A stretch of 64,000 nucleotides of DNA, taken from assembly GCF_000788395.1 (NCBI RefSeq), contig NZ_CP009888.1, forward strand, positions 2,934,001 through 2,998,000, written 5' to 3'. The position numbers and the translations under genes were made by a program. Origin of the DNA: Pseudoalteromonas piratica. Its GTDB lineage: Bacteria > Pseudomonadota > Gammaproteobacteria > Enterobacterales > Alteromonadaceae. Position 1 is the first letter of the stretch, and each line of letters starts with the position of its first letter. Positions 8,682-62,454 of this stretch are shown here, one piece after another. Under the pieces are notes generated by a model that was given only the letters and a program-made list of their open reading frames with translations, searched no databases and was not told the origin of the DNA.

Positions 8682-9794
8682 TTATTTCGGCTCAACGTAT
8701 TCAACCACTTCAAGCCCGAAACCTGAAATTGCATGATACTTTTTCGGCATGCTCATTAGGCGCATTTTGTGAATGCCTAAATCAGCCAAAATTTGTGAAC
8801 CAACACCTACTGTGCGCGAGGTGCCTTGGAACTTACGCACACTTGGGCTTTCACCTTTGTCTTGCGCTTCAAACGCTTTAAATAACGCTTCTAAATCTTC
8901 AGGATTTTCGTGTTTCGCTAAAATAACTAATACACCTTCATTTTCAGCGATGTATTTCATCGCACCCGAAAGGGTCCAGCTGCGATCAGATGCACGATCT
9001 GAAAGCAAAATATCGTTAAAGGTACTTTGTAGATGAACACGTACTAAGGTTGCATCGTCTTCTTTAACGTCGCCTTTTTTCATCGCATAGTGAAGCTCAC
9101 CGTCAATGGTGTCTTTATAGGTGATTAGGTCAAACTCACCGTGCTCTGTAGGTAGCTTACATTCTGCTACACGTTCAATCGTGGCTTCATTTAAGTTACG
9201 GTACTCGATTAAATCGGCAATGGTGCCCATTTTTAAACCGTGTTCTTTAGCAAATACTTCAAGGTCTGGACGGCGCGCCATGGTGCCATCTGGATTAAGA
9301 ATTTCTACGATTACTGACGATGGCTCACATCCAGCTAAACGTGCTAAGTCACAGCCAGCTTCAGTATGTCCTGCGCGGGTTAATACACCACCCGGTTGCG
9401 CCATAATTGGGAAAATATGACCTGGCTGAACGATATCTTCAGGCACTGCGCCTTTTGCAACAGCCGCTTGCACTGTACGTGCACGATCTGCAGCTGAAAT
9501 TCCCGTTGTTACGCCTTTTGCCGCTTCAATTGACATTGTAAAGTTGGTCGAAAACTGTGCGCCATTATTGCTTACCATTAGCGGTAAGTTAAGCTGCTGA
9601 CAACGCTCTTGTGTTAGTGTTAAACAAATCAAACCGCGACCATGCGTCGCCATAAAATTAATTGCATCTGCACTGATATGCTCAGATGCCATAATTAGGT
9701 CGCCTTCATTTTCACGGTCTTCGTCATCCATTAGAATGACCATTTTACCTTGACGGATATCTTCAATAATTTCTGCTGCAGTGTGTAAACCCAT
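8682..9794 (-). CDS. ribB: 3,4-dihydroxy-2-butanone-4-phosphate synthase with degenerate GTP cyclohydrolase II domain
   Basis: The N-terminal domain (about 1-205) is a complete Rib[12 protein letters not shown] binds Mg and ribulose 5-phosphate, and THGRGLICL and the [13 protein letters not shown] motif are present. It forms the four-carbon unit of riboflavin from ribulose 5-phosphate. The C-terminal domain (about 210-370) has the GTP cyclohydrolase II fold sequence but lacks the zinc cysteines: where an active enzyme has SECLTGDVFGSLRCDCG, this protein has [16 protein letters not shown], with no Cys. GTP cyclohydrolase activity is therefore unlikely, and a separate ribA is expected elsewhere in the genome. 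Such fusions are common in gammaproteobacteria. The gene lies between ribE (24-base gap) and ribH. Confidence 0.93.
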
Positions 9795-58299: not shown

Positions 58300-59938
58300 G
58301 AGATGCTTTAGCTTCCATTGTGTTATTAACGAGGTATAAAGGGATTAATCCAACTAGCACAATAAATAATGCAGATACTGATGCTAACTCCAACTGCTCA
58401 TCACTGACGTACTGATAAACATATGTCGCAAGGGTTTCGAAATCAAATGGACGAAGCAGTAATGCTGCTGGGAGTTCTTTCATACATTCAATAAATACAA
58501 TTAAACCCGCGGTGAACATCCCCCTTTTTAAAAGCGGTAAATGCACGCGTTTTAATGTGTTAGCTTTTCCAACTCCCATAGAATGACTCGCCATATCAAG
58601 CGATGGCGAAATACGCGCATAGCTCGATTCAATTGCACCCTGTGCAATTGCATAAAAGCGAACGACATAGGCAAACATTAACGCGAAAATAGTACCGCTA
58701 AAAATCAATCCCGGTTCTTCAAACCACCCAGTTGATTCGGCAAAAATGTTTATGTGTTCATCAAAGGTGGTCAGCGGCAGAAGTACCGCAATTGCCAATA
58801 CCGTTCCAGGTAAGGCATAGCCGGTACTTGAAATTTTACCTGGAATACCCGACCAACGTGTATTTGCATGACGTTGATAAAAGTTAACAAGCACACTTAA
58901 CACAACACAAATAACACTCACAATTAGTGCAATCTTAAGGCTTTGCCAAGCATAGAAGAATGCATCACTATTGAACGCATCACTAAAGTAGTCAATGGCA
59001 TAGCTAGTAAGGATTAAAATAGGTAACAAAAAGCCGGCAAATAAAATCAGGCAACAATAAAAAGTAGCAGCCCAAGACGATACGCCTGAGAGATAATATA
59101 AGGGGCCATTATTTTCGCTGGCACCACGTTCAAATACAGCTTGATTGCGACGACTAAACTTCTCAACACCAATCACGATAAATAAAAAGAGCAGCATAAT
59201 GCCTGAAATTTTAGCGGCAGCAGTCAAGGAGTAATACCCAAGCCAAGTATCATAGACCGCAGTTGTGAGCGTGCTCACTGCAAAATAATTAACTGTGGCA
59301 AAGTCAGCCATGGTTTCCATACTGATTAACGCAAGCGCTGCTGCAATCGCTCCTCGCCCCAGTGGAATAGACACTTTAAAAAAGCTTTTAGTCGGTGAAT
59401 AGCCCATTACTTGGCTGGCCTGAACCAATTTATAAGATTGTTCTTTTAAGGCCGTTTTAAAAATTAAAAAAAGATATGGATACAGTACCAAGGCAATCAT
59501 GACCATGGCGCCACCCAAGGTACGAATATCAAAAAACCAATAATCACTCGGTGACTGCCAACCAAAAACACTGCGTAACCAAGATTGCACAGGACCTGCA
59601 TAATCGAATAAGTCAGTATAGACATAAGCGATGATATAAGTTGGCATCGCAAGCGGTAACATCAATGCCCATTCAAAATGCTTTTTACCGGGAAATTCAC
59701 TATAAGCGCAGAGCCATGCAAGCGGTAAAGCGATAATACTACTGAGCAGGCAAACACCAAAAATAAGCACCACAGTATTGTAGGTATAATCCCACAAAAC
59801 AGTCTGCTTTAAATGCTCAAAAACCTCAGTATCAGGTTGAAACGATTCAAAAATCAGGAACAATAACGGAAGCGACAGGCATAAGCCTGTCGCATAAGCA
59901 ATAAACTGCCATTTAGACAGTGAGAAGTTAAAGCGCAT
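58292..59938 (-). CDS. fbpB: Ferric iron ABC transporter permease
   Basis: A 548-residue membrane protein of the FbpB/FutB/ThiP type, with two fused permease halves of about six helices each. Each half contains an EAA-like loop: VMGYSPTKSFFKVSIPLGRGAI near residues 180-200 and HSMGVGKANTLKRVHLPLLKRG near 455-475. Two-half fusion is characteristic of ferric-iron and thiamine importers. Its ATG overlaps the fbpA stop (TAATG), and its end overlaps fbpC by 8 bases, so the three genes are translationally coupled. Confidence 0.9.
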   Translation of the reverse strand: MRFNFSLSKWQFIAYATGLCLSLPLLFLIFESFQPDTEVFEHLKQTVLWDYTYNTVVLIFGVCLLSSIIALPLAWLCAYSEFPGKKHFEWALMLPLAMPTYIIAYVYTDLFDYAGPVQSWLRSVFGWQSPSDYWFFDIRTLGGAMVMIALVLYPYLFLIFKTALKEQSYKLVQASQVMGYSPTKSFFKVSIPLGRGAIAAALALISMETMADFATVNYFAVSTLTTAVYDTWLGYYSLTAAAKISGIMLLFLFIVIGVEKFSRRNQAVFERGASENNGPLYYLSGVSSWAATFYCCLILFAGFLLPILILTSYAIDYFSDAFNSDAFFYAWQSLKIALIVSVICVVLSVLVNFYQRHANTRWSGIPGKISSTGYALPGTVLAIAVLLPLTTFDEHINIFAESTGWFEEPGLIFSGTIFALMFAYVVRFYAIAQGAIESSYARISPSLDMASHSMGVGKANTLKRVHLPLLKRGMFTAGLIVFIECMKELPAALLLRPFDFETLATYVYQYVSDEQLELASVSALFIVLVGLIPLYLVNNTMEAKASHE

Positions 59939-60939
59939 TAAAGATCAAATTTCACCTCGTCGATTAGCTTCAATGCCAATGGACGGTATTCACTAACCTT
60001 CGTTAATGGCAGTGCATCTTCCTTAAATTTGCCCCAAGATGCCACTAACTCAGAAACTTCAACATCCGGTTTAACCGGATATTCCATATTCACAGAAGCA
60101 TACATATTCTGAGCTTTGTTGTCAGTCATAAATTCGATTAATTTTAACGCGTTAGCAGTGTTTTTACCGTGTTTGGTTAAAACCGCACCAGAAACGTTAA
60201 TATGTGAACCGCGGTTTGTTTGGTTAGGGAAATTAATGTATACAGATTCAGCCCAAGGAACTTGCTTTGGATCATTCAGCATTTTACCAAAGTAGTAGCT
60301 GTTACCGAGTGCAATGTCGCATAACCCTTCTTTAACGGCTTTCACTTGCGCGCGGTCATTTCCCTGTGGCTTACGTGCTAAGTTAGCTTTTAACCCTTTC
60401 AACCATTCACGTGCTTCTGTTTCGCCATGGTGGGCGATCATTGAAGCTACCAATCCCAAATTATAAGGGTGTTTACCTGAGCGCATGCAAATTTTGCCTT
60501 TGTATTCTGGCTTAGCAAGATCTTCATAAGTTAATGCATCTAATCTGCCAACACGCTCTTTTGATGAGTAAACATTGCGCACACGCTTGGTTAACGCAAC
60601 CCAACTGCCTTCGTCATCTCTAAATTGTGCTGGAACATTTTTTTCAATAACGTCGCTGTTAATGGGTTGTACTAAACCTTCATCTTCCAATTGTAACAGT
60701 GCGCTAAAATTTGAAGTAAGTACCATATCAGCTTTGGTGTACTTACCTTCTTTTTTTAACTTTTCAATAAGGCCTTTCTTGGCAAATACTACTTTAGTTT
60801 CAATACCCGTCTCTTTTGTGAACTCTTGTAAGATAGGTTCAATTAAAAAGCCCTGACGGTAAGAGTAAATATTAACAACATCTTTTGCTGCAACTTCACC
60901 AGCTGCAAGCAGTGCGAGTAATGCAATTGCTTTTTTCAT
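59938..60939 (-). CDS. fbpA: Ferric iron-binding periplasmic protein
   Basis: A 333-residue solute-binding protein with a signal peptide (KKAIALLALLAAGEVAA, cleavage before KDVVNIYSYRQ) and the transferrin-like two-lobe fold of FbpA/FutA; the YSYRQ and the SYYFGKML segment near the C-terminal half supply tyrosines of the type that bind Fe(III). The ATG at 60939 is chosen because the signal peptide begins there; a longer frame adds 38 residues without signal features. It heads fbpA-fbpB-fbpC-dyp. No clear Fur box was found upstream, although an iron-regulated promoter would be expected. Confidence 0.9.
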   Translation of the reverse strand: MKKAIALLALLAAGEVAAKDVVNIYSYRQGFLIEPILQEFTKETGIETKVVFAKKGLIEKLKKEGKYTKADMVLTSNFSALLQLEDEGLVQPINSDVIEKNVPAQFRDDEGSWVALTKRVRNVYSSKERVGRLDALTYEDLAKPEYKGKICMRSGKHPYNLGLVASMIAHHGETEAREWLKGLKANLARKPQGNDRAQVKAVKEGLCDIALGNSYYFGKMLNDPKQVPWAESVYINFPNQTNRGSHINVSGAVLTKHGKNTANALKLIEFMTDNKAQNMYASVNMEYPVKPDVEVSELVASWGKFKEDALPLTKVSEYRPLALKLIDEVKFDL

Positions 60940-61019: not shown

Positions 61020-61127
61020 ATGCCAAATAAACGTGATTATACGAAAGAATCAAAAAACGATATTGCCGAATTTATATGTGAGAAATATCTCACAGAACTT
61101 CCCTATTTATCTCAAAAAACACACTGA
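61020..61127 (+). CDS. Doubtful small ORF upstream of the CsrB-like RNA
   Basis: An ATG frame of 35 residues (MPNKRDYTKESKND at the start) lies between fbpA and the non-coding RNA. There is no Shine-Dalgarno site, and a perfect 18-bp palindrome (61077-61094) falls inside it, so the DNA may be regulatory rather than coding. No similarity to a known family is recognised. Listed because it is the only open frame in this space. Confidence 0.2.
   Translation: MPNKRDYTKESKNDIAEFICEKYLTELPYLSQKTH
61077..61094. promoter_or_regulatory. 18-bp perfect-arm palindrome upstream of fbpA and csrB-like RNA
   Basis: TGTGAGA (61077-61083), AATA, TCTCACA (61088-61094). Both seven-base arms match exactly. It resembles a CRP half-site (TGTGA) but the arms are 8 bases apart rather than 6, so another regulator is more likely. 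It lies 138 bases upstream of fbpA and about 170 bases upstream of the RNA. Confidence 0.5.
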
Positions 61128-61212: not shown

Positions 61213-61257
61213 ACAAGTGATTTATCTTGTTTTATTCAACAAGCAATTCCCTAGAAT
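61213..61257 (+). promoter_or_regulatory. Probable promoter and upstream palindrome of the CsrB-like RNA
   Basis: TAGAAT (61252-61257) is a likely -10 element placing the transcription start near 61264; no good -35 exists, which suggests activator dependence. Upstream, ACAAG (61213-61217) and CTTGT (61226-61230) form an inverted repeat. GacA/UvrY boxes are also inverted repeats upstream of csrB genes (TGTAAG-N6-CTTACA), but this one matches only loosely, so the assignment is tentative. Confidence 0.4.
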
Positions 61258-61263
61258 AGACAC

Positions 61264-61569
61264 TGTCAAAAGGAAATGGACTGAATTGACCTTACTTAGG
61301 ATTAGTAAGCGGCAGGAGCTGGTAGGATTTACTAGATGGAATTTGGGCTAGGATGCCAAGGGAATTGCTGGTTTACAGGATGTAGACCTGAAAAGGACTT
61401 TTTTACAGGATTGTATTTAGGAGTGATGGACTGAGCAGGGAAATAGCTCATTGACGAGTCATGTCAAAATAAGGATATCAAGGATTGCAATTATACAAAC
61501 AACGCATATTTGCATAGCAGGATGCTAAAAAGATTCCGTTAAGGCGCAGCTTAAAGCTGCGCTTTTTAT
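61264..61569 (+). ncRNA. csrB: CsrB-type CsrA-sequestering small RNA
   Basis: A non-coding region of about 300 bases with some 17 GGA motifs, 13 of them as AGGA. Many lie in hairpin loops: CTTACT/AGTAAG closes a loop holding TAGGATT (61291-61309), and TAGC/GCTA closes AGGAT (61515-61527). Other clear examples are at 61314, 61324, 61350, 61377, 61407, 61472 and 61481. This is the defining feature of CsrB/CsrC/RsmZ RNAs, which bind many CsrA dimers and relieve CsrA repression of translation; the GacS/UvrY system normally controls their synthesis. A strong intrinsic terminator ends it. There is no reading frame. The precise 5' end is inferred. Confidence 0.85.
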
Positions 61570-61572
61570 TTG
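61541..61572 (+). terminator. Intrinsic terminator of the CsrB-like RNA
   Basis: GCGCAGCT (61544-61551) pairs with AGCTGCGC (61555-61562) around a 3-base loop and is followed by TTTTTATTT. Confidence 0.92.
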
Positions 61573-61709: not shown

Positions 61710-62381
61710 TTAGGGAACTAATTTACTGCGCTTACCCTTCAAGTAGGCATTTCTAAAATCGACAAAATGGCGCTCTAGCTTTTGCGAAGCATCAAGCTCT
61801 CCTGCTAACTCTAGTACCATTATTGCGACCTCAGCGGTTCCGAGTTGATGTTCAAATGCAGCCACTCGTAAATGATACTCTGAAAGTTTTTCCGGGCTAA
61901 TTGATAAAATAGGGAACCCGTCTAAATAAGGGCTTTTACGAATCATTTTCTTCGCTTCACGCCAGGTGCCATCTAAAAAAACAAATAACGGCTTTTTTCC
62001 TTCAACGCGGCCAACGTGTTTAACAATTCGTTCGGCTGGCATATTATCTTCAGGAAACACGATAAAGGGCTGATAGTTATCACTTTGTAATAAACTTAAC
62101 AGTGCTTCATCTGGATCCGTCCTATCCCAGCGAAATGCATAATTGTCTGGCACAATATCAGCAATTAAACGCCCGGTATTTGATGGCTTAAAACTTTCAT
62201 TGTGATACATCAGCAAACAAACAGCCGCATTACAGCTTGCCTCTTCGATGCCATCACAAATACATAAGGTTTCAGATAACAAACAATGCTCACAGCGAGA
62301 TAATTTTGAACCTCGCGCCTTGTATTCGCGCTTTGCTGCAGCGATTTGTTGTTGTCTAAGTGCTAATACTGAATTTTTCAA
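61710..62381 (-). CDS. tapT: DTW-domain tRNA uridine aminocarboxypropyltransferase
   Basis: A 223-residue protein of the YfiP/TapT type, which transfers the 3-amino-3-carboxypropyl group of SAM to uridine (acp3U47) in tRNA. It has the Cys cluster CEHCLLSETLCIC (zinc), the motif FLDGTWREAKKM with the namesake DTW-type residues (here DGTW), and LGTAEVAI. TTG at 62381 is preferred because GGGAGG lies 7 bases ahead; TTG 62399 is an alternative six codons upstream. It is transcribed alone, opposite in direction to the RNA. Confidence 0.85.
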   Translation of the reverse strand: MKNSVLALRQQQIAAAKREYKARGSKLSRCEHCLLSETLCICDGIEEASCNAAVCLLMYHNESFKPSNTGRLIADIVPDNYAFRWDRTDPDEALLSLLQSDNYQPFIVFPEDNMPAERIVKHVGRVEGKKPLFVFLDGTWREAKKMIRKSPYLDGFPILSISPEKLSEYHLRVAAFEHQLGTAEVAIMVLELAGELDASQKLERHFVDFRNAYLKGKRSKLVP

Positions 62382-62454
62382 TCGACCCCTCCCAAGCAAG
62401 CGGCGTATTTTAGCGTTTTTTATCTCTTTGAGCTAATCTCAAAAAATACAGGTA

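Follow-up and report, generated by a model that had tools for sequence, protein, structure and literature searches.

The window, by which we mean the whole 64-kb stretch of DNA analyzed here, very probably encodes a CsrA-sequestering small RNA at positions 61264–61569. We hold with high confidence that this stretch corresponds to an RNA of about 306 nt that is not translated, belongs to the CsrB family, is of the Pf2 type of Pseudoalteromonas fuliginea and titrates CsrA, with both its transcription and its CsrA binding being predicted. An earlier note had pointed to this region as a gene-free, GGA-rich stretch with the pattern of a CsrB-type RNA; the observation itself was confirmed as real, and the interpretation as a CsrB-type RNA is supported by the data presented below. 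RNAs of this kind have been described before, and within the genus so has this particular RNA, and the interest of the case lies more in the comparison across the genus than in the window itself. New aspects are a genus-specific 3' signature, the predicted size range of these RNAs including giants with tandem repeats, and the location of the Pf3 RNA at the position of csrC in E. coli.

The region contains 17 GGA motifs (12 AGGA, 3 TGGA, 2 GGGA), just as estimated in the earlier note. Shuffling the sequence with conservation of dinucleotides yielded a mean of 8.4 motifs (sd 2.0, maximum 14), and shuffling by composition a mean of 6.9 (maximum 15), so that all 2000 shuffles in both series stayed below 17. 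The same 306 bases show the highest GGA density of the 64-kb window on both strands, and the runner-up stretch of equal length contains 8 motifs. The longest open reading frame overlapping the region has 44 codons, in agreement with the claim that it is free of genes.

Ten of the 17 GGA motifs can be drawn in the loops of local hairpins with stems of at least four pairs, including the two hairpins previously noticed at 61291–61309 and 61515–61527; by our own count, overlaps between these ten hairpins allow at most seven of them to coexist. When the spacers were shuffled with the GGA motifs held in place, a mean of 4.9 motifs fell into loops, and ten were reached in 4 of 500 trials. In the calculated ensemble of the window RNA, the GGA motifs have an unpaired probability of 0.73 compared to 0.22 for the other G residues, and the higher value for GGA was obtained for the window RNA as well as for all 60 relatives inspected (60/60). 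The RNA as a whole folds better than its shuffled versions (z = −2.56), with 1 of 100 shuffles being as good. An excess of loop placement over shuffles by two standard deviations was seen in just 19 of the 60 relatives, and the two closest ones stayed at or below this margin (8 vs. 5.5 ± 1.9 in locus L018 and 7 vs. 5.7 ± 1.6 in L088). The coordinates of the individual features are collected in the table.

Table. Features of the predicted RNA gene and its surroundings (positions in the window).
Feature	Positions	Strand	Remarks
Solute-binding protein of an ABC transporter, divergent neighbour	59938–60939	−	Pfam SBP_bac_6
GacA/UvrY-type box TGTGAGAAATATCTCACA	61077–61094	.	centre 178.5 bases upstream of 61264
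Weak −35-like element TTGTTT	61227–61232	+	putative; 19-base spacer to TAGAAT
Likely −10 element TAGAAT	61252–61257	+	putative, read from the sequence by eye; start near 61264
CsrB-type small RNA gene (Pf2 ortholog), about 306 nt, 17 GGA	61264–61569	+	predicted 5' end
Hairpin with UAGGAUU loop, 6-pair stem	61291–61309	+	
Hairpin with AGGAU loop, 7-pair stem	61370–61388	+	7/7 pairs kept in the L018 and L088 variants
Hairpin UGAGC/GCUCA with GGA in the loop	61432–61450	+	L018 and L088: stem unchanged, loop variable (by eye)
Genus-specific 3' signature: last GGA hairpin (UAGCAGGAUGCUA) and AAAAGAUUCCGUUA, ahead of the terminator	61515–61540	+	
Intrinsic terminator AAGGCGCAGCTTAAAGCTGCGCTTT with T-rich tail	61541–61570	+	11-pair stem (61541–61565), 6 G-C
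DTW-domain protein, convergent neighbour; start codon uncertain	61710–62399	−	Pfam DTW, 179 bits

Upstream of the array lies a palindromic box, which the earlier note did not mention and which adds to the CsrB features that can be tested in a sequence, all of which were found. A palindrome of this type is an established GacA/UvrY site. The corresponding box of E. coli csrB (NC_000913) reads TGTGAGAGATCTCTTACA and is centred at −182.5, and a similar palindrome at the Pf1 gene is named as a GacA site in PMC9927453. The pattern TGTNAGNNNNNNCTNACA has four exact matches in the 4.8-Mb genome, one of them being the box of the window. If one mismatch is allowed, the pattern is found at 110 places per strand, compared to 117 for the reversed control, and the box alone is therefore uninformative. 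Its position ahead of the array is conserved: 55 of 60 relatives have a box with at most one mismatch there, where about 0.4 would be expected from the genome-wide rate; two mismatches are needed in the other five relatives, three of which show a match that looks unlike the rest. We fetched 16 of the 110 boxed loci (L002–L017) for inspection. The other exact matches (L002, L003 and L005) were rejected as Csr RNA loci with at most 7 GGA per 300 bases nearby, and the box of L008 (AGTAAGAAATATCTCACA, near a 5S rRNA gene), followed by at most 8 GGA per 300 bases without a CsrB-like array, was kept as a weak candidate. At this locus (contig C1, 150344), a moderately GGA-rich spacer leads by eye from the box to a terminator-like repeat beside the apparent 5S rRNA gene, and it is possible that L008 represents a degenerate or a fourth Csr RNA.

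A generic promoter scan detected no consensus promoter on the strand of the RNA, which would fit an activator-dependent promoter. The genome contains one copy of csrA (89.6 bits) and one uvrY gene above the curated cut-off (396.8 vs. 280 bits).

The 3' end of the array is followed by a strong intrinsic terminator, as had been noted before. Because about 0.7 sites of this kind are expected per shuffled kilobase, the weight of the terminator lies in its strong stem and its conservation in close relatives; a strict terminator finder recorded terminators in 31 of the 60 relatives. The order of elements at this end is the last GGA hairpin, AGATTCC and the terminator, and GATTCC follows the GGA hairpin in 67 of 71 related sequences, the exceptions being L047, L102, L103 and L105. 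L105, L103 and L102 represent RNAs located beside a gene for a solute-binding protein in the genomes of L024, L026 and L028. The pattern GGAYGC-N(3-14)-AGATTCC has a single match in the genome of the window (61520–61546) and is present in 102 of 108 genomes of the genus, compared to 8 for the reversed control. An order-wide sample contained it in 4/4 members of the genus and in 8/390 other genomes, which does not exceed the control (17/394 by our own count); the signature is thus restricted to Pseudoalteromonas within this sample. The sequence AG/AUUCC may provide an entry site for RNase E, as it fits the RN/WUU preference of this enzyme, and would then be equivalent to the entry site of E. 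coli CsrB. There, cleavage by RNase E has to take place in the unstructured RNA that separates the last CsrA site from the terminator (PMC5027483).

The earlier note had described the neighbouring genes as coding for iron transport and a tRNA modifier. Pfam matches verified an ABC transporter and a DTW-domain protein, the latter presumably being similar to tRNA aminocarboxypropyltransferases, whereas iron is a label of the earlier note, and Pfam only identifies a solute-binding protein. The transporter genes adjoining the RNA code for a binding protein, a permease and an ATPase. The RNA gene lies between the DTW and solute-binding-protein genes and is convergent with the former, and this layout is shared by the L064 locus of P. 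fuliginea KMM 216 and 59 more loci. Scanning the named genomes for the DTW protein yielded 78 loci, 72 from Pseudoalteromonas and 6 from Paraglaciecola. Whenever both neighbours were present in Pseudoalteromonas (60/60 loci), a GGA-rich RNA with at least 13 GGA in 350 bases was located in between. The 12 Pseudoalteromonas loci lacking the binding-protein gene contained at most 7 GGA and the six Paraglaciecola loci at most 8 GGA downstream of DTW, with two of these 18 low-GGA loci offering little sequence to judge (91 bases in L077, none in L095). We followed up ten of the 12 Pseudoalteromonas loci, leaving out L077 and L079, one of which is from a metagenome-assembled genome. In six of six genomes with the binding-protein gene apart from DTW, the RNA was found beside the binding-protein gene, with 18–21 GGA in 350 bases, and in four of four genomes without a binding-protein match at E 1e-60, it was detected by DNA searches with 72–91% identity.

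The RNA of the window is 95.5% identical to that of Pseudoalteromonas sp. G4 (L018) and 91.6% to that of strain P1-9 (L088), and all 17 GGA motifs are retained in both. Compared to G4, 0 of 51 letters in GGA motifs and 14 of 255 others have changed (Fisher p 0.07), and compared to P1-9, the respective values are 0 of 51 and 26 of 255 (Fisher p 0.007). BLAST searches with the window RNA gave matches in 21 of the 60 relatives, 19 of which were near the 3' end only; the bodies of Pf2-type RNAs diverge fast. RNAs of this type can be located by combining position, GacA-type box and 3' signature. The published prevalence of Pf2, given as 45% in PMC11882849 (303 of 672 genomes, identified by similarity of sequence), refers to another set of genomes than ours, and our results suggest that it is an underestimate caused by the fast sequence change.

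Three Csr RNAs of P. fuliginea BSW20308 are described in PMC11882849, namely Pf1, Pf2 and Pf3 with 25, 21 and 9 GGA motifs, respectively, and the earlier PMC9927453 gives 21 motifs for Pf1. The evidence reported there for these RNAs consists of promoter fusions, gel shifts, RIP-seq enrichment and glycogen tests (PMC11882849); that for Pf2 comprises promoter activity, CsrA binding in vitro, enrichment in CsrA RIP-seq and increased glycogen in E. coli (PMC11882849). To assign the window RNA, we used the genome of P. fuliginea KMM 216. The GacA box of Pf1, as printed in PMC9927453, occurs once in this genome when up to one mismatch is allowed, namely at L096, and four proteins encoded around L096 (a GNAT-type protein, a DUF3549 protein and two small proteins) match those around L001 in the genome of the window with 41–52% identity, which identifies L001 as the counterpart of Pf1. 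L001 (contig C1, 2588121–2588405, minus strand) is a Pf1-type RNA for which we counted 28 GGA in 400 bases, and its GacA-type box TGTAGGAAATATCTTACA begins 182 bases upstream of the first GGA. The loci L010 of the window's genome and L116 of KMM 216 both have a cytochrome c gene on one side and yihI on the other, contain 9 GGA each as well as AAT repeats, and fit the Pf3 type. Because Pf1 and Pf3 fit L096 and L116, the locus between DTW and transporter genes in KMM 216, L064, is left as Pf2 by elimination; it contains 23 GGA, compared to the published count of 21 for Pf2 of BSW20308. By position and elimination, the RNA of the window would then be the Pf2 counterpart. Its body gave no BLAST match to the L064 copy at E 1e-3, so that position, box and 3' end form the basis of the orthology. 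In common with Pf2 of BSW20308, which by position and elimination occupies the same locus, it is a GGA-rich intergenic RNA with a conserved upstream box and an intrinsic terminator, and it presumably shares the CsrA-titrating role. It is shorter than the KMM 216 copy (about 306 nt, or 317 by the rule using box and 3' motif, vs. 474 nt) and has fewer GGA motifs (17 vs. 23, or the 21 published for Pf2 of BSW20308).

We considered whether the window might contain a CsrA-binding RNA of a fourth type instead of Pf2, as BLAST gives no alignment between its body and the P. fuliginea RNA and the published motif number of Pf2 deviates from that counted in L064 (21 vs. 23). This appears very improbable, because neighbours, orientation, kind of box and 3' signature are the same as in L064, the P. 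fuliginea genome that contains L064 has other loci that fit Pf1 and Pf3, and three is also the number of Csr RNAs reported in PMC11882849. Even less credence is due to a GGA-rich untranslated region or remnant without function in trans, such as a 3' extension or an attenuator of a neighbouring gene. Although the promoter scan did not retrieve a consensus promoter on the RNA strand, both neighbouring genes are on the opposite strand, all 17 GGA motifs have been kept while other letters drifted, and the RNA is still present in genomes in which the neighbours are separated or one of them is absent. Finally, the strand is purine-rich (99 A and 81 G of 306 bases), which might by itself generate an array of GGA motifs; with the shuffling results reported above and an array conserved across the genus, including close relatives, an origin by chance or composition is practically negligible.

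The check with Rfam covariance models proposed in the earlier note turned out negative: neither CsrB (RF00018) nor CsrC (RF00084) matched the window at the gathering score, and the best match of the window RNA at relaxed scores was CsrC with 26.6 bits, compared to the gathering score of 61. No Rsm family was among the Rfam matches listed for the window. Of 12 loci run against Rfam, just E. coli CsrB (380.4 bits), CsrC (278.7 bits) and Spot 42 passed, whereas the KMM 216 loci assigned to Pf1–Pf3 (L096, L064 and L116) and the other Pseudoalteromonas loci failed. The CsrB model gave scores of 48.4 bits for L001 and 27.3 bits for L096, both below the cut-off of 71, and a search of the whole genome with the CsrC model had the Pf3-type locus L010 as top match (21.1 bits, cut-off 61), which is a weak indication, with the window RNA not among the matches listed. 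Because the P. fuliginea loci matching Pf1–Pf3 fail as well, the failure of the window RNA, which the earlier note had named as a refutation, is uninformative, and it seems that the models are limited here rather than that a defining feature of this kind of RNA is lacking. Elsewhere in the window, positions 9594–9697 match the Rfam family V_AS9 (Vibrio RNA AS9) with 98.4 bits (threshold 50). This match is antisense to the start of an open reading frame at 8682–9794 that resembles ribBA by eye, and protein-coding conservation may explain it.

Compared to the known systems, the window RNA resembles E. coli CsrB in its GGA hairpins, in a GacA/UvrY-type box near −180 and in the arrangement of a last GGA, a short stretch and the terminator. 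E. coli CsrB, which contains 22 GGA in 369 nt, differs in being adjoined by syd and yqcC, unlike the window, as the earlier note had rightly stated for its neighbours, and the two RNAs are alignable only over a short 3' stretch. RsmY and RsmZ of pseudomonads, which are Gac-controlled sponges of CsrA/RsmA, are shorter and contain fewer GGA motifs. E. coli CsrC provides the best match below threshold, yet its positional counterpart in this genome is L010. The E. coli gene has yihA and yihI as its neighbours, and L010 (contig C1, about 386300, minus strand) is flanked by a yihA ortholog and a cytochrome gene on one side and by a methyltransferase gene and yihI on the other, with the yihA product being 69% identical to E. 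coli YihA. The terminators of csrC (GGCGACAGAGTAATCTGTCGCC) and of the Pf3-type RNA in the window's genome (GGCGACAGAGATTTTCTGTCGCC) have near-identical stems, whereas that of the P. fuliginea Pf3-type RNA differs (GGCGGTAGAG). The shared position suggests that Pf3 may be csrC by descent. The origin of Pf3 is left open by the authors of PMC11882849, the word yihI is absent from the main text of that paper, and among the papers listed in a literature search, none dealt with a descent of Pf3 from csrC by its title.

Using the box and the 3' motif as ends, we were able to predict the lengths of 58 of 71 Pf2-type RNAs, which range from 316 to 964 nt and contain 13–52 GGA motifs. The window RNA is among the three shortest ones measured, and its clade is characterized by RNAs of about 316 nt with 17–18 GGA; the fewest motifs, 13, occur in a predicted RNA of 345 nt. 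The largest predicted RNAs, of about 890–960 nt and with 51–52 GGA, are those of P. aurantia (L085) and strain MSK9-3 (L087), the count for L085 being 51 under a slightly different start. They contain tandem copies, namely 7.7 of a 67-base unit in L085 and 6.8 of a 66-base unit in L087, and a sample unit from each folds into two hairpins with one GGA per loop. Both expansions are located between the DTW and solute-binding-protein genes. An uncultured Pseudoalteromonas (L019, 5394–5681) has a separate expansion in its Pf2-type RNA, with 3.5 copies of an 83-base unit. We looked for a tandem array in the window RNA as well and found none there, and a literature search, to which most subscription papers were out of scope, retrieved no report of a tandem-expanded Csr RNA. 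We regard it as an evenly balanced proposition that the Pf2-type RNA serves the whole genus as a core sponge and has its capacity tuned through the gain and loss of entire GGA-hairpin modules.

In the proposed mechanism, phosphorylated UvrY/GacA would bind to the palindrome at 61077–61094 and switch on the weak promoter, from which the RNA would be transcribed starting at 61264 in the strain of the window. The RNA would offer as many as 17 GGA sites, of which ten can be drawn in loops with at most seven hairpins forming at once, and would bind several CsrA dimers. This titration should free target mRNAs from CsrA, and the window RNA would set the level of free CsrA together with its Pf1- and Pf3-type sister RNAs. 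With this analysis, a marine genus for which Rfam at its curated score found no such RNA in the loci examined gains an annotated Csr sponge that can be tested. If the proposed tuning by modules is true, the strength of CsrA titration would vary up to about fourfold among sister species from one locus, and the genus would represent a natural series, with 13 to 52 GGA motifs at a single locus, for relating the number of sites to CsrA control.
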